In this document: positions 571 to 19,915 of the stretch, in pieces
Layout of the letters: each line of letters begins with the position of its first letter
How positions within the stretch are numbered: the first letter of the stretch is position 1
From: an uncultured Lachnospiraceae bacterium
GTDB taxonomy: Bacteria; Bacillota; Clostridia; Lachnospirales; Lachnospiraceae
NCBI GenBank assembly: GCA_902789555.1
Contig: CADAOF010000006.1
Span: forward strand, 1-64,000
Direction: 5' to 3'
Length of the DNA stretch: 64,000 bases
The notes under the pieces: model-generated
The model's database searches: none
The model's input: only the letters and a program-made list of their open reading frames with translations
Told to the model about the DNA's origin: nothing
Position numbers and translations under genes: made by a program

Positions 571-1383
571 ATGAAAGAAGAGAAATCGAAAGACATGGTT
601 AAAGAATACGTGGTCAAAGGGGATGTCTGCCATCCCGGGACCGTGCAGGTCACGGACGGAATGACGATCCGCCAGGTGATCGAAGCAGCAGGCGGAATGC
701 TGCACGGAAAAGCCTTCAAGGCGGTACAGATCGGCGGCCCTTCCGGGACGCTGCTGTGCGCGGACCAGCTGGATCTTCCGCTGGATGTAAAAGCGCTTGC
801 GCCCTTCGGCATGCGCCGGGGCGACGGCGTGGTGACGGTCCTCGATGAAGACCGCTGCATCGTCGATGCCGTCAGACGCTTCATGGAGCAGACGCAGACT
901 GATTTCTGCGGGAAATGCGTTTCCTGCCGCGAGGGCACGCGCCGTCTCGTGGAACTGCTGAACGCCCTCATGACGGGGATCCTGAACGACGCAGGCTTCA
1001 ACATCCTCTTCGAGATCGGGGAGATGGTCAGCGTGACCGGCTTCTGCGCCCTCGGCAAGGGTGTTTACGATACGCTGAAGAATGCCTATCAGTTCTTCCC
1101 GGAAGAATTTGAAGCGCACAGGCACGGTCACTGCGAACTCTGCGCCGCGCACCGGCATCTGCCGATCGAACCCGGCAACATTCCTTACGACCGCCGCAGG
1201 ATCGTGATCGATCCCACGCTCTGCCGCGGCTGCAGCCGCTGTGCACGGTCCTGCCACGCGGAAGCCATTACCGGGGTCATCAAGTCCCCGTTCACGATCG
1301 ACCAGAACAAGTGCGTGAAGTGCTTCACCTGCATGGAACTTTGCGCGTTCGGCGCGATCAGAGAGGAGGAGATCGATGGCTAA
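571..1383 (+). CDS. Shortened NuoF/HydB-like iron-sulfur subunit (SLBB, NuoF 4Fe-4S and 2x4Fe-4S ferredoxin domains)
   Basis: This 270-residue protein matches only the C-terminal half of a NuoF/HydB hydrogenase subunit. From about residue 12 there is an SLBB domain (KGDVCHPGTVQV). Around 113-150 is the NuoF iron-sulfur region with CGKCVSCREGTRR and a fourth cysteine in GFCALGKG. Two ferredoxin CxxCxxC clusters follow near 219-265. The Rossmann part that binds FMN and NADH in full-length HydB (about 600 residues) is absent, and only 176 bases separate this gene from tRNA-Cys, so no remnant fits upstream. It overlaps hydA by 8 bases. I infer an electron-relay partner of HydA using ferredoxin, not NADH. 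The start is uncertain: ATG 571 has a weak ggaag site, and ATG 595 is also possible. Confidence 0.82.
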   Translation: MKEEKSKDMVKEYVVKGDVCHPGTVQVTDGMTIRQVIEAAGGMLHGKAFKAVQIGGPSGTLLCADQLDLPLDVKALAPFGMRRGDGVVTVLDEDRCIVDAVRRFMEQTQTDFCGKCVSCREGTRRLVELLNALMTGILNDAGFNILFEIGEMVSVTGFCALGKGVYDTLKNAYQFFPEEFEAHRHGHCELCAAHRHLPIEPGNIPYDRRRIVIDPTLCRGCSRCARSCHAEAITGVIKSPFTIDQNKCVKCFTCMELCAFGAIREEEIDG

Positions 1384-3082
1384 GGGACTGATGTACATTG
1401 ATAACATCCGCGTGGAATTTGACGACGAACCGAACGTGATGGCTGTCTGCCGGAAGGCCGGCGTGGAAGTGCCCAACTTCTGTTTCCATTCGGATCTGTC
1501 GGTCTACGGTGCCTGCCGCATGTGCATGGTGGAAGATGAAAACGGAAAGATCGACGCGGCCTGTACGATGGTGCCGAAAAACGGCATGCGCATCCGGACC
1601 AATACAGCGAAGCTGCTGCGCTACCGCCGACTGACGCTGGAACTGCTCCTGGCCGCGCACTGCCGCGACTGTACCCTTTGCGAAAAGAGCGGCAACTGCC
1701 GCCTGCAGGACATGGCAGCGCGTTTCGGCATCCATGAAATGATCTTTACGGATACCCGAACGCATATTGAGAACGACGAGACCAGCCCTTCCATCAGCAT
1801 CGATTACAACAAATGCATTCTCTGCGGCGACTGCGTGCGCGTATGCGAGGAGGTCGAGGGCATCGGCAACCTTCACTTTGCCGGACACGGCCCGGATCTT
1901 CGGATCATCACGACCGGGGACAAGCCGATCATCGACACGAGATGCATCAGCTGCGGCCAGTGCTCCGCCGTCTGCCCGACCGGCGCCATCGTGGTAAAAA
2001 ATGAGATCGGCGAAGCCTGGAGAGCGATCCACGATCCGAAAAAGCGTGTAGTCGTGCAGATCGCACCGGCCGTCCGCGTGGCCGTGGGGGAAGCTTACGG
2101 GATAGCTCCCGGTGAGAACGTCCTGGATAAGCTGGTCGCTGCCCTGAAGATCATGGGCGTGGACGAAGTTTACGATACGATCTTCGGCGCGGACCTGACC
2201 GTGCGCGAGGAAGGTGCGGAATTCCTGCGCCGTCTGGAGAGCGGCGAAAATCTGCCGCTCATGACATCCTGCTGCCCGGCCTGGGTCAAGCACGTGGAAA
2301 ACGACCGCCCGCAGTTCCTGAAGAATCTTTCCTCAGCGCTGTCGCCAATGCAGATGTTTGCCACGGTCCTGAAGGACCGCTACCGCGAGAAGGATGCGGA
2401 AGACGGCCGCGAGACCTATCACATCGCGATCATGCCCTGCACGGCCAAGAAGATGGAGGCGGCGAGACCCGAGTTCAGGCGCTTCGGCAAGCCCAACGTG
2501 GACCTGGTGCTGACGACGCAGGAAGTGATCAAGATGATCAAGGAATCCGGCATCCGCTTCACGACGCTGGAAAAGGAATCGCCCGACCTGCCCTTCGGCA
2601 TGGGCTCCGGCGCCGGGGAGATCTTCGGGACTGCCGGCGGCGTTGCCGAAGCGGTCATCCGCCACTGCCTGCCCGACAAGTCCAAGAACGCGCTGCGGAT
2701 GATCAGTGAGTCCGGCCTGCGCGGCACGAGCCAGACAAGGTTCGCGACCATTCCGATCGGAGGACGTGACGTCCGCGTCGCGGTGGTCCATGGCCTTGCG
2801 GCTGCCGACAGGCTGCTGGATCAGATCGAAAGCGGCGAGGTGCAGCTGGATCTGGTCGAGGTCATGACCTGCCGCACCGGCTGCGTGGGAGGTGCCGGCC
2901 AGCCGACGGCCCTGATGGGCAGCAAGAGGAGGCGCGCGGAAGGCCTGTTCGAACTGGACCGCAGCGCCCTGTTCAAACGCGCGGAGCGGAATCCGGTCCT
3001 GAACATGATGTACGATGAGGACCTGAACGAGCGTGCGCATGAACTGCTGCACCACAAATACGAAGGCGCGAAAGAAGACTGA
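1376..3082 (+). CDS. hydA: [FeFe] hydrogenase catalytic subunit
   Basis: The protein (568 residues) catalyses reversible proton reduction to H2. The N-terminal 2Fe-2S domain has cysteines around 37-52. A histidine-ligated cluster (HCRDCTLCEKSGNC) follows, then two 4Fe-4S clusters (CILCGDCVRVC and CISCGQCSAVC). The H-cluster motifs are all present: TSCCPAW at 297-303, MPCTAKK at 353-359, and ExMxCxxGCxxGxGQP from about 495, with C499 and C503. The third motif has GGAGQP where GGGQP is usual. It overlaps the preceding subunit gene, so the two are coupled in translation. No NuoE-like subunit is nearby. It would dispose of fermentation electrons, consistent with butyrate formation. Confidence 0.96.
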   Translation: MAKGLMYIDNIRVEFDDEPNVMAVCRKAGVEVPNFCFHSDLSVYGACRMCMVEDENGKIDAACTMVPKNGMRIRTNTAKLLRYRRLTLELLLAAHCRDCTLCEKSGNCRLQDMAARFGIHEMIFTDTRTHIENDETSPSISIDYNKCILCGDCVRVCEEVEGIGNLHFAGHGPDLRIITTGDKPIIDTRCISCGQCSAVCPTGAIVVKNEIGEAWRAIHDPKKRVVVQIAPAVRVAVGEAYGIAPGENVLDKLVAALKIMGVDEVYDTIFGADLTVREEGAEFLRRLESGENLPLMTSCCPAWVKHVENDRPQFLKNLSSALSPMQMFATVLKDRYREKDAEDGRETYHIAIMPCTAKKMEAARPEFRRFGKPNVDLVLTTQEVIKMIKESGIRFTTLEKESPDLPFGMGSGAGEIFGTAGGVAEAVIRHCLPDKSKNALRMISESGLRGTSQTRFATIPIGGRDVRVAVVHGLAAADRLLDQIESGEVQLDLVEVMTCRTGCVGGAGQPTALMGSKRRRAEGLFELDRSALFKRAERNPVLNMMYDEDLNERAHELLHHKYEGAKED

Positions 3083-6113: not shown

Positions 6114-7436
6114 ATGGATCTTTTTGATTATCTCAACGAACAGAAAAGCGAAACCGAAGGCCCTCTTGCCTCGCGCCTCAGGCCGCGAAGCCTGGATGAG
6201 GTCGTCGGACAGCAGCATATCCTCGGCCGGGACAAGATGCTTTACCGCGCCATCATGGCGGACAAGCTCAGTTCGGTCATCCTTTTCGGCCCGCCCGGAA
6301 CCGGCAAGACCACGATCGCGCAGGTGATCGCCGCGTCGACGAAGGCCAACTTCCGGCAGATCAACGCGACGACGGCCGGCAAGAAGGACATGGAGGAGGT
6401 CGTGGAGGAGGCACGGACGTACCGTGCAGCCTACGGAAAGAAGACGATCCTCTTCATCGATGAGATCCACCGCTTCAACAAGGCCCAGCAGGATTTCCTG
6501 CTGCCCTACGTGGAGAACGGGACCGTGATCCTGATCGGGGCGACGACCGAGAATCCTTTCTTTGAAGTGAACAAGGCGCTCCTGTCCCGCTCGAACGTGT
6601 TTGAACTGAAGCCGCTGGAGAAGGAGGACGTTGCGGTCCTCGTGCGCCGCGCCGTGAGTGACCGGGAGCGCGGCATGGGCGTTTACAACGCCGTCATCGA
6701 CGAAGAAGCCGTGGACTTCCTGGCCGACATGGCCGGCGGTGACGCGAGGCGCGCCATCAATGCCGTGGAACTCGCGGTCCTCACGACAGAGCCTTCGGCC
6801 GACGGAAAGATCCATGTGACGCTTCCCGTTGCGGAGGAATGCATCCAGAGGCGGAGCCTCCGCTACGACAAGACCGGCGACAGCCACTACGATGTCATTT
6901 CAGCCTTCATCAAAAGCATGCGGGGCTCCGATCCGGACGCCGCCGTTTACTGGCTCGCGCGGATGATCCGGGCGGGCGAGGATCCGAAATTCATCGCACG
7001 GCGCATCATGATCTGCGCGTCGGAGGACGTCGGCATGGCGGATCCGCGGGCGCTCACGGTGGCCGTGGCAGCAGCCGAGACCGTGGAGCGCGTCGGCATG
7101 CCGGAAGGGCGCATTCCGCTTGCCCAGGCAGCGGTGTACGTGGCAACGGCCCCGAAGAGCAACGCCTCCTACCTTGCAATCGACCGGGCTCTGGAGGCAG
7201 TGGACCGCGTTGCGATCGAAAAGGTGCCGCCGCATCTTACGAACGCACCGATCGAAGGCATGAAGGATTTCGGGCACGGTGTCGGGTATAAATATGCCCA
7301 CGATTTCCCCGGCCATTACGTGAAGCAGCAGTATCTGCCGGATGAACTTGCGGGGACGAAATTCTTCGAGCCCGGGGACAACGGATACGAAAAAGACATC
7401 AAAAAATATATGGAGTTTTTGTCCCGTCTGGTGTAA
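6114..7436 (+). CDS. rarA: Replication-associated recombination protein A (AAA+ ATPase, MgsA/RarA)
   Basis: A 440-residue AAA+ ATPase of the RarA/MgsA/WRNIP1 family, which acts at stalled replication forks. The N-terminus carries RLRPRSLDEVVGQ, Walker A is GPPGTGKTT (about 62-70), Walker B is LFIDEIHRFN (about 118-127), and sensor 2 contains GGDARRAIN. The C-terminal RarA tetramerisation region ends with GHDFPGHYVKQQYLP-type sequence (here HDFPGHYVKQQYLP). The length is normal. The start follows an aaaggag site. A weak inverted repeat (7457-7481) lies between it and the next gene. Confidence 0.95.
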   Translation: MDLFDYLNEQKSETEGPLASRLRPRSLDEVVGQQHILGRDKMLYRAIMADKLSSVILFGPPGTGKTTIAQVIAASTKANFRQINATTAGKKDMEEVVEEARTYRAAYGKKTILFIDEIHRFNKAQQDFLLPYVENGTVILIGATTENPFFEVNKALLSRSNVFELKPLEKEDVAVLVRRAVSDRERGMGVYNAVIDEEAVDFLADMAGGDARRAINAVELAVLTTEPSADGKIHVTLPVAEECIQRRSLRYDKTGDSHYDVISAFIKSMRGSDPDAAVYWLARMIRAGEDPKFIARRIMICASEDVGMADPRALTVAVAAAETVERVGMPEGRIPLAQAAVYVATAPKSNASYLAIDRALEAVDRVAIEKVPPHLTNAPIEGMKDFGHGVGYKYAHDFPGHYVKQQYLPDELAGTKFFEPGDNGYEKDIKKYMEFLSRLV

Positions 7437-7519: not shown

Positions 7520-10500
7520 GTGAAACGCAAGATAACGCAGCTCGCGAAAGGGATCATCGATGCGAAGACTCCTGAGATCCGTGTGCTTACGGCGTCGGTG
7601 GACGCGACAGTTCTCTGCGGACAGCAGGGCAGCGGCGAACTTTCTCTTTCTTCGGGCAACGGCGTTTCCTTCCGCGGCCTTGTCTATGCGGACGACGACC
7701 GCATCGAGATCGCGGACAATTCCTACGCAGGCACCGCGGTCCGGATCCCCTACGTCCTCCATGCCGAGGACCTGAGCGAAAATACCGAACTGTCCGGAAA
7801 GTTTGCCCTGGTGACAAACGCCGGCGATTTTGAGATCCCGTATCGTTTCCATATCTGCCGCCCCATCCTGATGGAGCACGTCCTCCCGCAGGACGAGAAG
7901 GCACTCGGCGAACTGGCCGAGCAAGATCCCGACATGTGCATGAAGCTCTTCCAGTCGGAAGTGTTCCTGCAGATGCCGATCTTTGAGGACGACGTCCTGC
8001 GGGCACTTTACGTCAGCCTGCGCCGTTCGCCCGACCAGCGGCTGGCGATGGAAGAATTCCTTTCCGCCTGCGGGGCAAAGCAGCCCGTGGGGCTCTCACT
8101 GAACGAGATGCCGCGCACCTACCTTTTCCAGGACGGCATTCCGGGCGAGATCACGCTGATGAAGAACGGCGCCGGCTACTGCCTGATCACGGCAGTGAGT
8201 GAGACGCCGTGGATCCGCCTGCTGAAGGAGCGCTGGAACAACACGGACTTTAACGGCGACGTCTGCCGGATCCCGCTCTATTTCAGCCGCGCCGCCATGC
8301 ACCGCGGGAAGAACATGGGCTCGGTCCGGATCGCGACCGGACGGAAGAGCGTGAGCATCCCGATCACGGTCATGGTCGAAGAAGGCACGGACGAGGAGGA
8401 GAAGCGCCGCGGGGAATTCCGCAGGCAGAGCCTTCTGCTGTACCGTACCCTGCTGAGACTTTACGGCGACCCGAATGCCCCGAAGACGCTGGGCGAACAG
8501 GCGATGAGCTGCCTGGACGCCTGTGACGGATACCGGGAACCGACTGCCCGGGACCGGCTGCTCCGGGCTGAGGTCTGCCGTCTTCTGAACCGCCGGGACG
8601 AGGAAAAGGAGATCCTCGACGGCATACGCGCCGACGTACAGCGGGGGAGAAGCGAAGACACGTCCGCCTATCTCTGGCTGCTGTATCTGGAAGAGGAAAT
8701 GGAGCACGGCGACCGCCAAGCCGACGGTTTCCTGCGCCTTCTGTACCGGATGAAGGAATCCAACGTGAAGAGCGCGGAGGTCTTTCCCCTGCAGCGCCGG
8801 GTGGATGCCGAGTGGGCTGATCAGCCCGCACGCTGTCTCGAACGCATGCGGGAATTCTTCCGGCGCGGCGAACTCTCGCTCCTGCTTGCCGCCGACGCGG
8901 TACACATCCTTAACGAAGACCCCTCCCTGATGCAGAAGATCGGCCCGTTTGAGCGCTATCTGCTGCATTTCGGTGCGCGGAACGGCTTCTGGAACGAAAA
9001 GGCGGCCCTGCATGCGGCGGAGCTTCTCGCGCAAGAGGAGGAGACCGGCAGGCATGCCGTGCGGACACTGGAACTTCTGTACGCCCGCTTCCCCGAAAGC
9101 GGCATTCTCCAGGCACTGCTCACCCTTCTCATCCGTTCCGGCCAGCCGGAGGAACGTTTCCACCACTGGTACGTGAAGGGCATCGAGGAAGACATCCGCC
9201 TCAGCGAACTTTACGAATTCTATCTCAGCACCATCCCCGAGGGGAGCGACGAAGAGATCCCGCAGATGGTGCTCCTGTACTATACCTACAACAGCCCGAA
9301 ATGGCTTGCTTCCAAGCTGAACCTGTACCACTACGTCCTGGGACACTGCACGGAAGACAGCCGTCTGTACCGGCTCTACGAAAAGCAGATGCAGACCTTC
9401 GCGCTGGAACAGCTTCTGGACGGTGCCGAGAACTCCCGCGTATCGGAATTTTACGATGCGATGTTCATCCCCGAGGTCGTGGATGCGAAGACGGCGCCGC
9501 TGCTGACCGAATATCTCTACACGCAGGAACTGCATTTTGAAAACGACGGGATCCGCGAGGTCAAGGTGGTCTACGGCGAGCTGGAGGAGGAATTCTCCTA
9601 TCCCGTCAACCACGGCGAAGCCTACGTTCCGATCTGGTCGGACAGTGCGCGGGCGGTCTACGTGGATGCGGCCGGCAACCGCTATGCCCGGACGAAACTC
9701 AGCCGCCGCCGCTTCATGCACGGCAGCCCGGCCCTGCTCGAGGTCTGCCGCAGGCTTTCTCCCGAGAGCCTGCCCTTCCGTCTGGAAACGGTCCGTGACG
9801 GCCGGCAGACGGGAGTGGACGATCCCGTGAAGCTCCTCGGCGCGAAAGGCCTGTCGGAGATCTATCGGGAAAAGCTGATGCTCTCGCTGATCGAAGAGGC
9901 GGGAAAGGACGCGGAAAACGGTCCGGCAAAACTGCACGAGATCAAGGACAGTCCCTACCTCAATGAGGAGGCCGGGCGGCTCCTTGCGGAAAACTTCATC
10001 CGCCTGGAAGATGACGACGCCGCGATCGAACTGATCCACCGCTTCGGTACCCGCGGCTACAGCCCGGAACTGCTGCTGCGGCTTCTGGACCGTCAGATCC
10101 GAAGGAACAATTACGCTTTTGACCGGAGCCGCTGCCAGCTGTCGCTCACGCTCTACCGCGGCGGGGACAGCGACCCTGTGACCCTCACCTATCTCTGCCG
10201 CTGGTTCAACGGCGGAACGAAGGAAATGAAGCAGCTGCTGGCGGTCGCCGGCGCGGAGGGCAGCGAAGCCCTGGTGCATGACCTGCCGGCGCGGCTTCTC
10301 GCGCAGATGCTCTTTACCGGTGACACGGACGGCCTTGACGAGGTCTTTGCCGCGTATCTGCGGGAGCCGGAGCACATGGACCGCATCGTGACCGAAGCCT
10401 ATCTGGTCGTTCAGTCCGAGCGATATTTCCACGACGGCGTCCGGGTGCCGGAGGAGGTCTTCACGCTGATCCGCTCCTGGGCGGAGCGGGAAAAGAAGCC

Positions 10501-11065
10501 GGAATTCCTGCCGGTCATCTGCCAGATCGCGCTGACGAAGCGCTTTTCGGAAAAACGACTGCTGTCCGCGGCCGATACCGAACTCGCGGAACAGATGCTG
10601 AACAGTCTGTACAATCAGGGACTGCTCTTTGCCTACATGAAAAAACTGGGGCGCTTCATGCCGCTGCCGGCGGAACTGGCGGACAAGACGCTGATCGAAT
10701 ACCGCGGTGATGCGGACGTTTCCACCGAGATCGGCTTCCGCATCCTGCCGCAGGAAAAAGATAAGCCGATGATCTTCACCGAGATGCCGCACGTGTTCCG
10801 CGGGATCTACGTAAAGCCGGTGCTGCTGTTCGCGGACGAAAAACTGGAATACGAAGTGCGGACGGTAAGCGGCAAAGCCGTGGAGACCGTTGATCACGGA
10901 AAGGTCGGCCTGAACGCAGAGCCCGAGCCCCGGGAAAACCGCTTTACCCACCTCAACCGCATCCTTGCCGAAAGCGGTGACATGTCAGGGGAGGACTGGC
11001 GCGACGAACTGCTGGCGTTCGGCAGGGAAGACGTACTGCTCAAGGAATATTTCAACGTACAGTAG
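7520..11065 (+). CDS. Very large DUF5717-like protein of unknown function
   Basis: An 1181-residue protein without signal peptide or membrane segment, so it is probably cytoplasmic. It resembles, from memory, the DUF5717 family of Lachnospiraceae. About residues 1-130 and 190-290 look beta-rich and immunoglobulin-like. Most of 290-1080 looks alpha-helical with repeat-like spacing (many LL, LY and AEL heptads). The last 110 residues look beta-rich again. No catalytic motif is recognisable. The start is GTG at 7520, chosen because aaaggag lies 5-12 bases upstream. It is followed after 88 bases by the actin-fold gene and a TPR-like gene on the same strand, and the block runs into ispFED. I infer a scaffold or sensor subunit of a complex with its neighbours. 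Confidence 0.75.
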   Translation: MKRKITQLAKGIIDAKTPEIRVLTASVDATVLCGQQGSGELSLSSGNGVSFRGLVYADDDRIEIADNSYAGTAVRIPYVLHAEDLSENTELSGKFALVTNAGDFEIPYRFHICRPILMEHVLPQDEKALGELAEQDPDMCMKLFQSEVFLQMPIFEDDVLRALYVSLRRSPDQRLAMEEFLSACGAKQPVGLSLNEMPRTYLFQDGIPGEITLMKNGAGYCLITAVSETPWIRLLKERWNNTDFNGDVCRIPLYFSRAAMHRGKNMGSVRIATGRKSVSIPITVMVEEGTDEEEKRRGEFRRQSLLLYRTLLRLYGDPNAPKTLGEQAMSCLDACDGYREPTARDRLLRAEVCRLLNRRDEEKEILDGIRADVQRGRSEDTSAYLWLLYLEEEMEHGDRQADGFLRLLYRMKESNVKSAEVFPLQRRVDAEWADQPARCLERMREFFRRGELSLLLAADAVHILNEDPSLMQKIGPFERYLLHFGARNGFWNEKAALHAAELLAQEEETGRHAVRTLELLYARFPESGILQALLTLLIRSGQPEERFHHWYVKGIEEDIRLSELYEFYLSTIPEGSDEEIPQMVLLYYTYNSPKWLASKLNLYHYVLGHCTEDSRLYRLYEKQMQTFALEQLLDGAENSRVSEFYDAMFIPEVVDAKTAPLLTEYLYTQELHFENDGIREVKVVYGELEEEFSYPVNHGEAYVPIWSDSARAVYVDAAGNRYARTKLSRRRFMHGSPALLEVCRRLSPESLPFRLETVRDGRQTGVDDPVKLLGAKGLSEIYREKLMLSLIEEAGKDAENGPAKLHEIKDSPYLNEEAGRLLAENFIRLEDDDAAIELIHRFGTRGYSPELLLRLLDRQIRRNNYAFDRSRCQLSLTLYRGGDSDPVTLTYLCRWFNGGTKEMKQLLAVAGAEGSEALVHDLPARLLAQMLFTGDTDGLDEVFAAYLREPEHMDRIVTEAYLVVQSERYFHDGVRVPEEVFTLIRSWAEREKKPEFLPVICQIALTKRFSEKRLLSAADTELAEQMLNSLYNQGLLFAYMKKLGRFMPLPAELADKTLIEYRGDADVSTEIGFRILPQEKDKPMIFTEMPHVFRGIYVKPVLLFADEKLEYEVRTVSGKAVETVDHGKVGLNAEPEPRENRFTHLNRILAESGDMSGEDWRDELLAFGREDVLLKEYFNVQ

Positions 11066-11086
11066 ATCCGGAAACGGTAAGAACAT

Positions 11087-11100
11087 ACGGCCGCGGCCGT
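11087..11100 (+). other. Perfect 14-base palindrome in the DUF5717-DUF5716 gap
   Basis: acggccgcggccgt is its own reverse complement. A second small hairpin (cccgc ttt ccgcggg, about 11104-11118) follows, and then the RBS of the next gene. There is no T run, so this is more likely an RNA processing or stability element, or an operator, than a terminator. Confidence 0.4.
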
Positions 11101-11153
11101 GCCCCCGCTTTCCGCGGGAACATACAGAAACTGATGTGAAAGGAGAATGCAGC

Positions 11154-12416
11154 ATGGGACTAATCCTGGGAATAGATTTATGTGATTCGTTCAGCCAGAT
11201 CAGTGTGTATTCTCCCGAAAAACGTGCGCCGGAGCCGCTGCTCCTCGGCGGTTCGGAATCGAACGGCATGATCTCGACCACCCTCTGCAAGGTCCGCGGG
11301 GCGGACCGCTGGCTGATCGGAACCGAGGCCTATCAGCGCGCCCTCATGGGCGAAGGGACCATGGTGGACAAACTCGTGAAGATCCTGACGCGAGGCACCA
11401 GTGCCACCATCGAAGGCGTCCAGTACAGCGCCGTGGATCTCATGGCGGCCTTCATCGGCCAGCTCATTCGGCTGCCGAAGATCGTGTACAAGGAAGAGGA
11501 GATCGAAAGCATCGCTTTCGGCCTGCGCCAGCTGGATCCGGACCTTCTGGACCGCCTGACCGAGGCGTGCGACATCTGCGGCCTGGAACGAAGCCGCGTG
11601 CGCTTCCTCAGTCATACCGAATGCTTTGCCTACTACGTGGCGAATCAGCCGAAGGAACTCTGGCCGAACGTGGTCTCCGCCTTCGACCTGAACGACGCCG
11701 GACTGGACTATTTCGAAATGAAGGTCGTCCGGGGACGCCGCCCGCAGATCCTGCAGGCAAACCGCGAACCGCTGGACGAAGCTTTCGACCTTGACCTTCT
11801 GGAAACGCCGATGGGCGAGCATATGGCCGATACCATCCTTTCTGCCTGCGCGGACCGGATGCTGCAGAAGAAACTGGTCTCGTCGATCTTCCTGACCGGC
11901 GAAGGCTTTACGAGCGTTGACTGGGCCAAGGATTTTCTGAAAAAACTGTGCATGAAGCGGAAGGTCTTCGGCGGACAGCATCTGTTTGCCGACGGCGCCG
12001 CGCTCGTTGCCTATGACAGCGCGCTGCCGGAAAGCCGCTTCCCGTATCTGTGCCTCTGCGAAGGCAGGCTCGCTTCCACCATCAGCCTCTTTGCGCTGAA
12101 GGACGGCAGAAACGAGCAGCTGATCCTGGCCCAGGCGGGCAGCAACTGGTATGAGGCAAAGTCCTCGGCAGAGTTCATCCTCGACGACGTCCATACCCTG
12201 GAACTCGTGGTGACGCCGTTCGCGACGCAGCACGTGGAGACGATCAGCCTGTCGCTGGACGAACTGCCGGCAAGGCCAAACAAGACGACAAAGATCGAAG
12301 TGATCGTAAGTTTTGCCTCCGAGAACCGCGTGACCGTGCGGGTCGTGGACAAGGGCTTCGGTGATCTCTTCCCCGCCAGCGGGATCGTGATCCGTAAGGA
12401 TTTCCTGATCTCGTAG
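11154..12416 (+). CDS. Actin/Hsp70-fold ATPase-like protein (DUF5716-like)
   Basis: A 420-residue soluble protein. The N-terminus MGLILGIDLCDSFSQISVY has the form of the phosphate-1 loop of the actin/Hsp70/sugar-kinase superfamily, with D8. FDLNDAG at 177-183 fits a phosphate-2 loop, and SSIFLTGEGF at 243-252 fits the adenosine motif. A beta-rich C-terminal region (about 300-420) resembles a substrate-binding or Ig-like domain. From memory it matches DUF5716, which occurs next to DUF5717. Start 11154 is chosen for its aaaggag site. I infer an ATP-dependent chaperone-like or filament-forming partner of the large upstream protein. No function is established. Confidence 0.72.
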   Translation: MGLILGIDLCDSFSQISVYSPEKRAPEPLLLGGSESNGMISTTLCKVRGADRWLIGTEAYQRALMGEGTMVDKLVKILTRGTSATIEGVQYSAVDLMAAFIGQLIRLPKIVYKEEEIESIAFGLRQLDPDLLDRLTEACDICGLERSRVRFLSHTECFAYYVANQPKELWPNVVSAFDLNDAGLDYFEMKVVRGRRPQILQANREPLDEAFDLDLLETPMGEHMADTILSACADRMLQKKLVSSIFLTGEGFTSVDWAKDFLKKLCMKRKVFGGQHLFADGAALVAYDSALPESRFPYLCLCEGRLASTISLFALKDGRNEQLILAQAGSNWYEAKSSAEFILDDVHTLELVVTPFATQHVETISLSLDELPARPNKTTKIEVIVSFASENRVTVRVVDKGFGDLFPASGIVIRKDFLIS

Positions 12417-12436
12417 GATCGGAGAAAGGAGCGCAC

Positions 12437-13246
12437 ATGAGCGGACTTATCCTCTGCAGGGAAAAAACGGTGACTCATCCGTACTACGTGAAGGAACTGG
12501 GCATCCATCTGTATACCGGAGAAGAACTCAGTTATTTCATCTGCCATAACATTCTGCTGATCGACGAAGATTTCGTGGATGAGCGGCTCTTTGACTTCCT
12601 GGAACAGCTGGGCGAAACGAGACTCTGCGAACGGGCGCGGCGCCTCGCGGAACAGGCAGGGCTTTTTGACGTCCTTTACCTGCTGCTGCAGGAACTGCAT
12701 TACTACAATACCGCCGAACTCTTTGCCTTCCGCCGCCGCTTGGAGGAACTCAGCGAAGCCTCCGCCGGTGCCAGAATGAAGGCAAAGGGCGACTACCTGT
12801 TCGAATGCGGACAGTACTACCATGCGATCCGGGTCTACGAACAGGTGATGGAATCCGGAAGTAGCGAGCTGGCGGACTCCGAATTCGTGGCGAAGATCTG
12901 GCATAACAAAGGCTGCTGCAACGCACGGCTCGAGATCTTCGACGAAGCCATGTACTGCATGGAGAAAGCCTACCGGCTGACGAAGGACACGGCACTTCTC
13001 GAGAAAATGTTCGTGATCAGCGAACTCGGCGGAGAGCGCATTCCGCACGCTGCCGACGATGTCATCACACCGAACATGCGGCGGCAGTTCCGTACGGACC
13101 TGGACGACCGCAAGAAACTGGCCATGTATACCGGCAAGGCGCTTGAAGTCGCAACGGTCATGGATAAGGCTCCGGAGAAGCGGGAGGAGGAATGCCGTTC
13201 GCTCCTTGCCCGCTGGAAAGAAGAATACAGAAGGAATCAGGCATGA
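12437..13246 (+). CDS. TPR-like helical protein of unknown function
   Basis: A 269-residue soluble, helix-rich protein. Two segments look like tetratricopeptide repeats, about 114-143 (KGDYLFECGQYYHAIRVYEQ) and about 152-185 (HNKGCCNARLEIFDEAMYCM). The N-terminal 110 residues are helical and not recognised. It starts 20 bases after the actin-fold gene with aaaggag as RBS, and its TGA overlaps the ispF ATG, so ispF is translationally coupled to it. I infer a third component of the DUF5717/DUF5716 complex, probably an adaptor. Confidence 0.7.
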   Translation: MSGLILCREKTVTHPYYVKELGIHLYTGEELSYFICHNILLIDEDFVDERLFDFLEQLGETRLCERARRLAEQAGLFDVLYLLLQELHYYNTAELFAFRRRLEELSEASAGARMKAKGDYLFECGQYYHAIRVYEQVMESGSSELADSEFVAKIWHNKGCCNARLEIFDEAMYCMEKAYRLTKDTALLEKMFVISELGGERIPHAADDVITPNMRRQFRTDLDDRKKLAMYTGKALEVATVMDKAPEKREEECRSLLARWKEEYRRNQA

Positions 13247-13722
13247 GAGCAGCCATAGGACAGGACAGCCACCGTTTTGAAGAAACAGAAGGCAAGCCGC
13301 TGGTACTGGGAGGTGTCGTTTTTCCCGAGGAACAGAGAGGCTTTCTCGCGAACAGCGACGGAGACGTGTTGCTGCATGCCCTGACGAACGCGGTGAGCGG
13401 GATCACCGGAAGAAACATCCTCGGCGCACCGGCGGACCGGATGTGCCGGGCGGGGATCACCGACAGTCGGGCGTACCTTGCGGAAGCGCTGAAAGATCTG
13501 GATGCGCCCGTCCTGCACGTATCCTTCAGCGTGGAGGGATCGCACCCGAAGATCGCGCCGCGCGCAGATGAGATCCGGGCGTCCGTGGCGGGACTGCTCG
13601 GGATCCTGCCTTCACAGGTCGGGATCACCGCGACTACGGGTGAAGGCCTGACCGACTTCGGAAAAGGCCTCGGCGTCAGCGTATTCTGCATCATCACGGT
13701 GGGAGACCGGAATGATATTTAA
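13243..13722 (+). CDS. ispF: 2-C-methyl-D-erythritol 2,4-cyclodiphosphate synthase, divergent
   Basis: This MEP-pathway enzyme cyclises CDP-methylerythritol phosphate with release of CMP. The 159-residue length is normal. The zinc ligands D8, H10 and H45 are conserved (GQDSH, SDGDVLLHAL), as is the ATTGE phosphate loop near the C-terminus. It is divergent elsewhere: the family's HSDGDV is NSDGDV here (N37), and the GDIG segment carrying a conserved aspartate reads RNILG (57-61). The start lies in an ATGA overlap with the TPR-like gene. ispE follows with an 11-base overlap, which supports the assignment. Confidence 0.88.
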   Translation: MRAAIGQDSHRFEETEGKPLVLGGVVFPEEQRGFLANSDGDVLLHALTNAVSGITGRNILGAPADRMCRAGITDSRAYLAEALKDLDAPVLHVSFSVEGSHPKIAPRADEIRASVAGLLGILPSQVGITATTGEGLTDFGKGLGVSVFCIITVGDRNDI

Positions 13723-14614
13723 GACAAGAGCCAAGGTCAATCTGACCCTGGAGATCATCAGCCGCCGGAACGACGGCTGGCACATGCTGGACACGGTATT
13801 CTGGCCGCTGTCCGCGGGAGACCGGATCTTTGCCGAAAGGCGGCCGTCCGGTCTTGCTTTTTCGTGCTCGGATAAAACGCTGGAAACGGAGGGCAATCTG
13901 GCCGTCCGCGCCTTCCGGCTCATGCAGGAACGCTTCGGTTTCGCAGAAGGCCTGTCCCTGCACCTGGAGAAACATGTTCCTTCACAAGCGGGGCTCGGCG
14001 GCGGTTCGGGCGATGCGGCCTGCGTTCTCAGGATCTGCAATGAAGTCTTCGGGCTGGGGCTTTCGCAGGAGCAGCTCGCGCTTCTCGGTGCGCCGCTCGG
14101 TGCGGACGTGCCCGCCCTTGTTTACGGCGGACCGACGAGAGGGCGCGGCACCGGTGCGGAGGTCACCCTGATCCCGACGGCGCTTTCGCTGCCGCTCGTG
14201 ATCGTGAAGCCGCCGGCCGGCCTGTCGACGCCGGCCATGTACCGGAAACTGGATGAACTGGGGCTCGGCGGCGGAAAGACCGCGGCAGGCAGAGAGGAAG
14301 TCGGGGCGGACAGCCGGAGTGCGCTCGCCGAAGCCGCGCTCAGGGTGAATGACGTGACTGCGCTTAAGGCGCAGCTCTGGAACGTATTCGACGCTGCGGC
14401 GGACGGAGAGGAAATCACGCTGTGCCGTCGTTTCCTGCGGGAGGCCGGTGCGGAAAAGACTGTCCTCTGCGGTTCGGGTTCGGCGTCCTTCGGCGTGTTT
14501 TCCGATGCAGGCTGCCGCGACGAGGCGGCGGACAGGCTGCGGCAGAGGCTTCCGGAAGGCTGGCTGGTCTTTGCTGCCGATACGGTAAATGAGGAGAGCC
14601 CGGACGATGAGTGA
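13712..14614 (+). CDS. ispE: 4-diphosphocytidyl-2-C-methyl-D-erythritol kinase
   Basis: A GHMP-family kinase of 300 residues that phosphorylates CDP-ME in the MEP pathway. The substrate motif AKVNLTLEI lies at the N-terminus, the ATP-binding glycine-rich loop PSQAGLGGGSGDAA around 90-103, and the third GHMP motif LCGSGSASFGVF near the C-terminus. It overlaps ispF by 11 bases and ispD by 8, so the three isoprenoid genes form one translationally coupled unit. Confidence 0.95.
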   Translation: MIFKTRAKVNLTLEIISRRNDGWHMLDTVFWPLSAGDRIFAERRPSGLAFSCSDKTLETEGNLAVRAFRLMQERFGFAEGLSLHLEKHVPSQAGLGGGSGDAACVLRICNEVFGLGLSQEQLALLGAPLGADVPALVYGGPTRGRGTGAEVTLIPTALSLPLVIVKPPAGLSTPAMYRKLDELGLGGGKTAAGREEVGADSRSALAEAALRVNDVTALKAQLWNVFDAAADGEEITLCRRFLREAGAEKTVLCGSGSASFGVFSDAGCRDEAADRLRQRLPEGWLVFAADTVNEESPDDE

Positions 14615-15281
14615 GAAAAGATTTTCCGCGATCCTTGCGGCCGGCGGAAGCGGTACGCGCTTCGGCGGGAGCATCAATAAAGTTTATCTGCCGCTGGACG
14701 GACAGACCGTTATCGGCGTCAGCTTGGATAAGTTCCTGCACCATCCGCTGATCGCGGAGGTGATCGTCGTGTACAGGCAGGAGGACGAAGAGATCCTCAT
14801 GCCCATCCTGGCGGAAAAAGGGGCGGACAGCGGGATCCCGCTGCTTGCGGTGCCGGGCGGTGCTTCCCGCCGCGATTCGGTCCGGAAAGGCCTGGACCTT
14901 GCTTCCTCCGAATGGGTCCTGGTGCACGATGCGGCAAGGCCTTTCTGGGATCCGGCCTGCATTGCAGACCTTGCGGCGGCTCTGGAGGAAGTCCCCGGGG
15001 CGACGGCTGCGATCTCTTCCCCGGATACGGTCAAGATCGCCGATGAGCGGGGGCGGGTCGTTCTGACGACCGAACGGAGCCGTACCTTCCTGGTCCAGAC
15101 ACCGCAGGCCTTCGAGCGGGACATTCTCCTCCGTGCACACCTGCTCCTTCCGGATGACGCACCGGCCACCGATGACTGCAGCATGCTGGAGCAGCTGGGC
15201 TACCCGGTGCAGCTCGTTCCCGGCAGCCCGAAAAACCGCAAAATAACAGTGCCGGAGGATCTTCCGATCTCCGGCAGCTGA
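14607..15281 (+). CDS. ispD: 2-C-methyl-D-erythritol 4-phosphate cytidylyltransferase
   Basis: A 224-residue nucleotidyltransferase that makes CDP-ME from MEP and CTP. The N-terminal loop AAGGSGTRFGG is followed by the conserved lysine in NKVYLPLDG. VHDAARPF around 110 and QTPQAFERD around 165 are family signatures. ATG 14607 has a gaggag site 10 bases upstream and overlaps the ispE stop. It is the last gene of the block and faces the dac gene 21 bases away. Confidence 0.95.
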   Translation: MSEKRFSAILAAGGSGTRFGGSINKVYLPLDGQTVIGVSLDKFLHHPLIAEVIVVYRQEDEEILMPILAEKGADSGIPLLAVPGGASRRDSVRKGLDLASSEWVLVHDAARPFWDPACIADLAAALEEVPGATAAISSPDTVKIADERGRVVLTTERSRTFLVQTPQAFERDILLRAHLLLPDDAPATDDCSMLEQLGYPVQLVPGSPKNRKITVPEDLPISGS

Positions 15282-18227: not shown

Positions 18228-18256
18228 TTGACCTTGCGCGGACGGGGTTGTATAAT
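18228..18256 (+). promoter_or_regulatory. Promoter of the PET-rich lipoprotein gene, probably giving a leaderless mRNA
   Basis: TTGACC (18228-18233), a 17-base spacer and TATAAT (18251-18256). The ATG at 18263 is only 7 bases after the -10 box, where transcription normally begins. There is no Shine-Dalgarno sequence between them. Confidence 0.75.
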
Positions 18257-18262
18257 CATCCC

Positions 18263-19915
18263 ATGATGAAAAAAACCTTCTTACTGAACATAATCGCGGC
18301 GGTGCTGGTGACAGCGCTGCTTTTGGCTGCCTGCGGAGGAAACGGCCCTGCGGGACAGTCTGCCGCGGATACGCTTCCCGAGATGACACTGCCGGATTTC
18401 GGCCCGGACCCGTGGGGGACCGCGGCTGATCCGTCGTCTTCCGAAGAGGCAGCGGTGACGGAAGAGGAGACGCTGGGCCTGACGGAAGAGCCTGCCGAGA
18501 GCACGACGGAACCCGTGACCGAAACCGAAAGCGAAACGGAGACGGAAACGGAGCCGGAGACCGAGACAGAGACCGAGACACAGAAGGCGGAGGGATTTGC
18601 CCTTGCTGCGGACGATCTGCCGGACAATATCTGGGTCTTCCGCAGGGGCAGGACTTATTACCTCGGTGCGGAGAAAAAACTCACGACCGGCCTGGCCAAG
18701 ATCGGAGGCAAGTCCTATTTCTTTGATAAGGACGGCGTGATGGCACAGGATAAATTCGTCACGCTCGACAAGAAGCTGTACTACTTCGGAACAAACGGCG
18801 CGATGGTGAAAAACACGAAGGTCGGCGCCTATACGATCGATGCCGACGGCGTGTGCACCACGGATTATTCCGGCCGCTTCACGCTGACGGAATCCAATCT
18901 GAACGAATACTGTGACTATCTTCTGCAGAAGTACGGCAAGACGCCTGAAGCCATTTTTAATCTGATCTGGAAAAACTACGGACAGCGTCCGAACGAACCG
19001 ATCGGCAGTCTGATGAGTCCGACGCAGCACCAGATCAACCAGATGATCATCCGCTTCTTCAACGACGGCGGCGGTGCCTGCTGCGACTACAGCTACGCCA
19101 CGGGACGGCTGCTGGAACGCGCGGGATACAAGAACGTCATCGTGCACTGCGACCCGAAACAGTCACGGCACCAGTGGAATCTGGTGCAGATCCGTCCCGG
19201 TGTCTGGCGTCACATGGATACGTACCGAAAGGCCTTCAAGGTCTTTCTGATCACAGACGACGAGCTTGCGGAACTGGATACCGATAACGTTCCCTACCGC
19301 TGGGACCGTACGAAGTGGACTTCCGAGACAGCGACCGGTACCGGCGGGAAGAACCCCGTGAAGGAAACGGAACCTCCGGAAACGACCGCGGCTGCGCCTC
19401 CGGAAACGACCGAAGCGCCGAAGCCGACGGAGACCCAGCCGAAGCCGACGGAGACGACGGCTGCGCCGGAAACGACTACGGCTGCGCCGGAAACTGAGGA
19501 ACACAAACACGACGGCGGTGAAGGCCGCGTAACAAAACAGCCAACCTGTATAGAAACAGGTATCAGGACATATACATGTTCCTGCGGAAAGACCTGGGAC
19601 GAAGAGATTCCCAAACTTGGTCACAGTTGGGACGAGGGCGTTGTTACTGAAGAACCGACCTGTACCGAAAAGGGAGTTAAAACGTTCACTTGCTCGAGAT
19701 GCCAAGAGATAAGGACCGACGAAATCCCTGCCCGCGGACATAACTTTGCGGATGGCGTCTGTACGGTTTGCGGTGCACCTGATCCGGATTATAAGCCGGC
19801 GACAGAAGCATCACAGGAAACTACGACTGCTCCCGAAACAACGGCCGCACCGGCCGACGACACGACGGCTGCCGATGATAATCCGGAACAGGCCGGAGAT
19901 AACAGCGGGAACTGA
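18263..19915 (+). CDS. Surface lipoprotein with transglutaminase-like domain and cysteine-rich C-terminal repeats
   Basis: A 550-residue lipoprotein with lipobox LAAC (Cys24). A Thr/Glu-rich spacer runs to about 110. About 115-200 resembles cell-wall-binding YYF/GxM-type repeats (KSYFFDKDGVMAQ, LYYFGTNGAMV). A transglutaminase-like domain follows with C273 or C274, H303 and D319 as the probable triad. A second PET-rich linker precedes two copies of a repeat with paired CxC/CxxC motifs and an EIP-x-x-GH ending (about 415-505). The start is ATG 18263 or ATG 18266. An upstream in-frame ATG at 18248 overlaps the promoter and would lengthen the signal peptide awkwardly. The repeat segment has lower GC than its surroundings. 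Substrate unknown. Confidence 0.8.
   Translation: MMKKTFLLNIIAAVLVTALLLAACGGNGPAGQSAADTLPEMTLPDFGPDPWGTAADPSSSEEAAVTEEETLGLTEEPAESTTEPVTETESETETETEPETETETETQKAEGFALAADDLPDNIWVFRRGRTYYLGAEKKLTTGLAKIGGKSYFFDKDGVMAQDKFVTLDKKLYYFGTNGAMVKNTKVGAYTIDADGVCTTDYSGRFTLTESNLNEYCDYLLQKYGKTPEAIFNLIWKNYGQRPNEPIGSLMSPTQHQINQMIIRFFNDGGGACCDYSYATGRLLERAGYKNVIVHCDPKQSRHQWNLVQIRPGVWRHMDTYRKAFKVFLITDDELAELDTDNVPYRWDRTKWTSETATGTGGKNPVKETEPPETTAAAPPETTEAPKPTETQPKPTETTAAPETTTAAPETEEHKHDGGEGRVTKQPTCIETGIRTYTCSCGKTWDEEIPKLGHSWDEGVVTEEPTCTEKGVKTFTCSRCQEIRTDEIPARGHNFADGVCTVCGAPDPDYKPATEASQETTTAPETTAAPADDTTAADDNPEQAGDNSGN

Follow-up and report, generated by a model that had tools for sequence, protein, structure and literature searches.

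Hsp110 and Ssz1 act as partners or exchange factors of Hsp70, and Hsp70 itself is contacted by GrpE at subdomain IIB. Hsp70-like proteins are also encountered in conflict systems. The HSP70/GrpE theme of the GAP1-N2 systems, in the sections of Kaur et al. (2020, PMC7159879) that deal with it, combines HSP70 and GrpE with a second, reduced HSP70 and a FNIII beta-sandwich protein with DnaJ or TPR, and VWA genes occur in its sister themes. CnuD of the CoCoNuT systems, according to the available part of the source (PMC11090510), possesses Hsp70-like nucleotide-binding (NBD) and substrate-binding (SBD) domains, is thought to be a poor ATP hydrolyser at best, carries helical repeats, and has VWA partners in some types. 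The Pfam families DUF5717 and DUF5716_C have entries without a function, and no description of a role for DUF5716 or DUF5717 was found in the open-access literature. Both families are represented in a 64,000-nucleotide stretch of DNA from an uncultured Lachnospiraceae bacterium (contig CADAOF010000006.1 of assembly GCA_902789555.1; the window), where their genes stand in tandem with a gene encoding a TPR-like protein.

This report describes the three-gene module by comparison of gene content, gene order, predicted structures and conserved residues across Lachnospiraceae and its order, Lachnospirales in the GTDB scheme. We consider it probable that the trio represents the Lachnospiraceae form of an Hsp70-based cluster of the order, and that it specifies a cytosolic, usually membrane-tethered complex with a non-hydrolysing DUF5716. 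An earlier reading of the window from its letters alone (the sequence-only reading) had proposed a cytoplasmic ATPase complex coupled to isoprenoid synthesis; it appears to have been half right, and the module is better taken as the core left from a multi-Hsp70 cluster. The larger cluster and a fourth gene, both of which lie outside the genome of the window, had not been seen by it.

Results

Conservation and gene order of the module in Lachnospiraceae

DUF5716 was matched in 195 and DUF5717 in 196 of 200 genomes of Lachnospiraceae (approximately 97%), and in 162 and 163, respectively, of the 165 that were at least 90% complete with at most 5% contamination. Two of these high-quality genomes lacked DUF5717, and both were among the three that lacked DUF5716 (P 2e-4, relatedness ignored). 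Across the order (146 genomes), 69 genomes carried both families, 2 carried DUF5716 alone, 6 DUF5717 alone and 69 neither (Fisher p 9e-32, uncorrected for relatedness); the two are co-inherited. All 16 genomes of the window's genus contained DUF5716. Outside the order, neither family was found above the cut-off in draws of 245 genomes from the class and 398 from the phylum, in which the order itself was represented by few genomes: DUF5717 occurred in 5 genomes of the phylum draw, all of Lachnospiraceae, and in 10 of the class draw (9 of Lachnospiraceae and 1 below the cut-off), and DUF5716 in 9 of the class draw, all of Lachnospiraceae. All three module genes are under strong purifying selection, with ratios of nonsynonymous to synonymous substitution rates (dN/dS) against four relatives from the genus of 0.055-0.10 (DUF5716), 0.08-0.16 (DUF5717) and 0.07-0.10 (TPR), compared to 0.04 and 0.06 in two pairs for the neighbouring rarA. 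No transposon essentiality data were found in the open-access literature.

From 338 confirmed relatives of a three-sequence DUF5717 query, the 80 best were taken as the Lachnospiraceae loci in which gene order was assessed. Carriers of the module include Kineothrix alysoides KNHs209 and Lachnospiraceae bacterium GAM79. DUF5716 lay next to DUF5717 in 79 of the 80, the remaining locus being cut by a contig end, and the TPR gene followed DUF5716 in 74 of the 76 loci with room for it, the two exceptions having an antisense open reading frame called at that place. The sequence-only reading had named the pairing of the two families and had placed the TPR protein beside them, and both proposals hold. 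A further gene, labelled c3, was located directly 3' of the TPR gene in 71 of the 80 loci; its protein is coiled-coil-like, and each of the 11 rows inspected displayed two hydrophobic spans. Median spacings within the unit are 20, 27 and 9.5 bases (open reading frame calls, longest start). Lachnospiraceae retain the putative scaffold DUF5717, the presumed pseudo-Hsp70 DUF5716, the TPR protein and, in most cases, the membrane protein c3. Conservation confined to the window's own genome is ruled out by the family, genus and gene-order surveys.

A larger Hsp70 cluster in other families of the order

In most other families of the order with matches, the DUF5716 model finds two adjacent proteins of approximately 500-580 residues. 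The surrounding genes were compared in 22 loci, taken from 22 of the 62 genomes outside Lachnospiraceae that matched DUF5717 or DUF5716. As gene order and homology show, this fuller form comprises four Hsp70-like proteins, a GrpE-domain protein, DUF5717, a TPR protein and sometimes the two-span coiled-coil protein, in the order DUF5717 N-part, DUF5717 main part, Hsp70-1 (approximately 558 amino acids), GrpE-domain protein (mostly 564-645), Hsp70-2 (412-545), Hsp70-3 (approximately 545), Hsp70-4 with VWA (approximately 692) and TPR (approximately 387). DUF5717 is mostly divided over two genes, and is a single gene in L066, L067, L070, L167 and L168. The cluster is complete and collinear in 15 of the 22 loci; five run into the end of the stretch or contig (L071, L162, L163, L166 and L169, the last also with extra internal genes), L167 has no recognised TPR gene, and L172 has no Hsp70-3, Hsp70-4 or TPR in place, a second match of its genome lying on another contig. 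The c3 gene closes the cluster in seven loci (L063, L066, L070, L160, L161, L167 and L168). Of the full-cluster loci fetched, L063 (2205-5384; genome G003) contains the DUF5716 that most resembles the Lachnospiraceae form; Hsp70-4 and TPR are each called there as two frames, reflecting ongoing decay or assembly error.

Pfam matches in the cluster proteins included VWA, TPR and HSP70, the last with scores of up to 309 bits; the 387-residue TPR protein scored far above the TPR cut-off. The GrpE domain, which is built into a large helical protein, exceeded its cut-off in three of the four proteins scanned (L065, L066 and L067), and L069 gave nothing at E 0.01. The VWA domains contain, in 7 of 7 cases, a DTTGSM motif, which is similar to a metal ion-dependent adhesion site (MIDAS). 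The cluster Hsp70s scored far below the NCBIfam cut-offs for DnaK and HscA. All checked residues are retained in Hsp70-1, Hsp70-3 and Hsp70-4 (9, 8 and 7 readable rows, an eighth Hsp70-4 row being incomplete), so that the intact set includes the protein that carries VWA. No J-domain gene was found in the module or the cluster in the nine genomes searched. Away from the cluster, two genomes have an Hsp70 (575 amino acids) paired with a J-domain frame (approximately 1,000 amino acids), at G024:C9:30128-31961 and G028:C7:39363-44086. The GrpE-domain protein and the three catalytically intact Hsp70s of the cluster were not found in Lachnospiraceae, the Hsp70s having been sought in three genomes; their relocation elsewhere in the genome is rejected on the basis of those three.

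Several further genes accompany the cluster. A membrane coiled-coil gene (c12), whose checked rows have three hydrophobic spans and which shows a weak ZorA-like coiled coil, precedes it in 5 of the 22 loci (L064, L068, L071, L162 and L169); c12 and c3 never occur in the same larger-cluster locus, several of which are cut short, and the two may be alternative tethers. In 12 of the 22 loci (e.g., L069:3834-4889), DUF5717 is flanked by a class I/II aminotransferase gene, for the most part encoded on the opposite strand; the gene is also present there in a few Lachnospiraceae loci (L054 at 12008-13138, L055, L057, L128 and L136), and is an old neighbour of DUF5717. Proteins of the cluster gave weak matches in PADLOC (ZorA-like coiled coils, PDC-M61B, PrimPol), which were attributed to coiled-coil, repeat or fold similarity.

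DUF5716 as a candidate pseudo-Hsp70

The predicted structure of DUF5716 matches the fold of the Hsp70 NBD with the substrate-binding beta-domain, in agreement with the actin/Hsp70 fold assigned to it by the sequence-only reading. Profile alignment (hhalign) related DUF5716 to Hsp70-2 (E 1.7e-34) and to Hsp70-3 (E 5e-17), and the Hsp70-2 profile matched Hsp70s of the PDB (E 1e-19). These alignments and a tree place DUF5716 as a descendant of an Hsp70 of the larger cluster.

In an alignment of 88 DUF5716 and 8 Hsp70-2 rows, the equivalents of K70 and E171 and the GGGT loop are each retained in 0 of the 88 DUF5716 rows, that of T199 in 3 and that of D194 in 25, with Glu at the last position in 61. 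Loss of K70, T199 and GGGT is already seen in Hsp70-2. The E171 site is occupied by His in 82 of the 88 rows; moreover, the second Gly of the adenosine site is Asp or Glu in 80, and this combination argues for a conserved new site and not for random decay. Between the phosphate-2 and adenosine motifs, the region that holds subdomain IIB, DUF5716 has 60-95 residues (median 75), compared to 133-152 in Hsp70-2 and 143 in DnaK, and subdomain IIB is, by these lengths, missing. After the adenosine motif 168-178 residues remain versus 298-314 in DnaK, which indicates that the helical lid (SBD-alpha) is missing as well. Since IIB is what GrpE grips, the loss of the GrpE gene and that of IIB go together. 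Overall, DUF5716 appears to have lost the ATP-hydrolysing parts of Hsp70.

DUF5717 and the TPR-like protein

The AlphaFold model of DUF5717 and its fold matches comprise two PapD/MSP-like beta-sandwiches, an alpha-solenoid with a beta insert and a C-terminal beta-domain, upholding the beta/helical-repeat build proposed earlier; a profile search of the PDB gave no matches. DUF5717 is predicted to serve as a scaffold. The TPR-like protein of the window and the 387-residue TPR protein of the cluster have their N-terminal 180 residues in common (E 1.4e-27).

The locus in the window and its neighbours

The features of the locus are collected in Table 1. The tandem trio on the forward strand and its overlap with ispF were confirmed, with ispE and ispD following further downstream. 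The DUF5717 protein matched PF18984 with E 5e-173 (577.5 bits) and PF18983 with E 2e-62 (211.8 bits; Pfam cut-off 25 for both), and the DUF5716 protein matched PF18980 with E 9e-92 (307.6 bits; cut-off 34.7) and had no match to PF00012. The best match of the TPR-like protein was TPR_2 (E 5e-6, 26.7 bits versus a cut-off of 27). NCBIfam gave zero matches for DUF5717 and DUF5716 and one weak TPR match for the TPR-like protein, and PADLOC gave zero matches for the trio. Pfam detected no ATPase domain in DUF5717 or the TPR-like protein. In keeping with the earlier claim that the trio has no membrane span, no 19-residue segment of any of the three proteins exceeded 1.4 on the Kyte-Doolittle scale, a measure of hydropathy alone. 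Promoter and terminator scans returned signals no commoner than in shuffled sequence.

Table 1. Coordinates of the module and adjacent genes in the window
Feature	Position	Strand	Description
DUF5717 gene	7520-11065	+	1181 amino acids; GTG start behind AAGGAG; PF18984, PF18983
DUF5716 gene	11154-12416	+	420 amino acids; PF18980
TPR-like gene	12437-13246	+	269 amino acids; weak TPR matches; orthologue of the 387-residue TPR protein of the larger cluster
ATGA overlap, TPR stop/ispF start	13243-13246	+	
ispF, ispE, ispD	13243-15281	+	neighbours in the window's genus only; outside the conserved module
rarA (MgsA)	6114-7436	+	upstream neighbour in the genus; outside the module

All 14 loci fetched from the genus in addition to the window have the order DUF5717-DUF5716-TPR-ispF-ispE-ispD (L190 containing only the end of DUF5717), and rarA comes first in all 11 that reach that far. 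Between TPR and ispF, the 4-base overlap can be recognised clearly in L189, L190 and L192; L198 is unclear, and no overlap was seen in the other ten. The search that recovered all three isp genes in each of these 14 loci, which served as positive control, found none in the 80 Lachnospiraceae loci, 72 of which extend at least 4 kb past DUF5717, nor in 11 further Lachnospiraceae loci from other genera. The isp linkage is therefore a trait of the genus, and in the genome of the window the isp genes are probably operon neighbours, with no functional link to the module implied.

Elsewhere in the window, a 270-amino-acid protein near the contig start (571-1383) matches a ferredoxin part and, of NuoF, the C-terminal half only, with an [FeFe] hydrogenase just downstream at 1376-3082. 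An apparent secreted protein or lipoprotein at 18248-19915 is rich in Thr and Glu and has short tandem repeats that, by eye, resemble glucan/choline-binding repeats.

Discussion

In the proposed complex, the DUF5717, DUF5716, TPR and c3 proteins would join together, with DUF5717 as scaffold, the TPR protein as a likely adaptor, and c3 as the usual anchor to the membrane. DUF5716 would be a rigid Hsp70 body without hydrolytic activity, serving to dock a client, DnaK or the scaffold, by analogy with the pseudo-Hsp70 Ssz1 in the ribosome-associated complex. More tentatively, and with somewhat less than even confidence, we propose that the order possesses a chaperone machine of three intact Hsp70s, one pseudo-Hsp70, a GrpE domain, a scaffold and a TPR adaptor, without a J-protein of its own, and that Lachnospiraceae discarded the motors and kept the motor-less core as a fixed, nearly indispensable structural part.

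Several observations weigh against these proposals. No match to c3 was obtained in the genome of the window (best E 0.16), and the stretches fetched for L053, L060 and L062 contained no recognisable c3, so that membrane tethering is not general. Searches of the PDB with DUF5716, as single sequence and as profile, gave no matches in either case; its link to Hsp70 rests on Hsp70-2 and the model. The equivalents of D8 and G341 are retained in 86 and 88 of the 88 DUF5716 rows, which makes nucleotide binding possible, and a Glu is aligned at the E171 site in one of the eight Hsp70-2 rows. The branches around Hsp70-2 and DUF5716 in the tree are long, so the argument for loss rather than gain is weakened, and the approximately unbiased (AU) test is equally affected. 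The model of DUF5717 (predicted local distance difference test, pLDDT, 79.9; predicted template modelling score, pTM, 0.52) leaves its domain arrangement unsure on account of the pTM. Finally, the search for the missing Hsp70s was limited to three Lachnospiraceae genomes.

Among the other explanations, DUF5716 could bind nucleotide without hydrolysis and assist the DnaK of the cell, either as an exchange factor or as a partner that works like a switch, comparable to Hsp110 and Ssz1. The residues for binding noted above leave room for this, but the loss of K70 and E171 in 88 of 88 rows and of T199 in 85, the absence of IIB, and the lack of a J-domain gene in the module or cluster of the nine genomes searched make it unlikely. 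The active ATPase complex of the sequence-only reading, with DUF5716 as nucleotide switch, fits the Hsp70 fold and the conserved gene unit; it is nevertheless improbable, as catalytic residues, GGGT loop and IIB are lost and the partners carry no Pfam ATPase domain. Slightly less credible still is that the module represents a domesticated relative of GAP1-N2-type or CoCoNuT-type conflict systems. HSP70, GrpE, a reduced second HSP70, a beta-sandwich and TPR-like protein and VWA are, as far as the cited sources cover them, common parts, but the trio drew no PADLOC match and its near-universal presence in the family is unlike that of patchy defence genes. Moreover, no GAP1 or GTPase genes were found when proteins from the cluster and its flanks were scanned with Pfam, whose coverage of these domains is unconfirmed, and no Pfam match to McrB-type GTPase or McrC-type genes was obtained among the proteins scanned, which included part of the flanking genes. 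A role in isoprenoid synthesis by the methylerythritol phosphate (MEP) pathway, for example in regulating IspF, IspE and IspD, would agree with the identical order and close spacing in the 14 genus loci; the absence of isp genes from the 80 and 11 loci elsewhere, with the overlap clear in three of 14 loci within the genus, renders it very improbable, and the isoprenoid coupling once proposed does not stand as a trait of the module. That the trio is a decaying, functionless remnant, as the loss of the other cluster genes and of Hsp70 parts might suggest, is rejected in view of its purifying selection and near-universal presence.

Under the preferred reading of the trio as a core derived from the Hsp70 cluster, two uncharacterised families that occur almost throughout the sampled genomes of a major animal-gut bacterial family become a testable system, through the putative pseudo-Hsp70 and the multi-Hsp70/GrpE set of its relatives. 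The cluster with its motors present and the module with its motors gone, moreover, would form a natural before/after pair for the role of Hsp70-derived proteins that do not hydrolyse ATP.

No description of a multi-Hsp70/GrpE/VWA/TPR cluster was found in the open-access literature, the work of Kaur et al. (2020, PMC7159879) being nearest, and the available portion of a paper on DnaK duplication (PMC11019930) does not mention Lachnospiraceae or Clostridia. In the sections that describe it, the GAP1-N2 theme is GTPase-centred (PMC7159879), whereas the larger cluster reported here has four Hsp70s, one of which carries a fused VWA domain, and the module is near-universal in one family. CoCoNuT, as far as its source describes it (PMC11090510), differs in gene order, and no McrB/McrC or RNase partner was seen here. 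Compared to Hsp70/DnaK (PF00012), DUF5716 has the NBD fold and SBD-beta and is of common descent, but is without the catalytic residues, IIB and the lid. According to the title of 5mb9, Ssz1 belongs to an Hsp70/Hsp40 pair, whereas DUF5716 is without a linked J-domain gene and, unlike both Ssz1 and Hsp110/Sse1, is additionally without IIB. Finally, the window proteins are plain members of DUF5717 (PF18984, PF18983) and DUF5716_C (PF18980), far above the Pfam cut-offs, and what is added here to these entries is the Hsp70 origin and the larger cluster.
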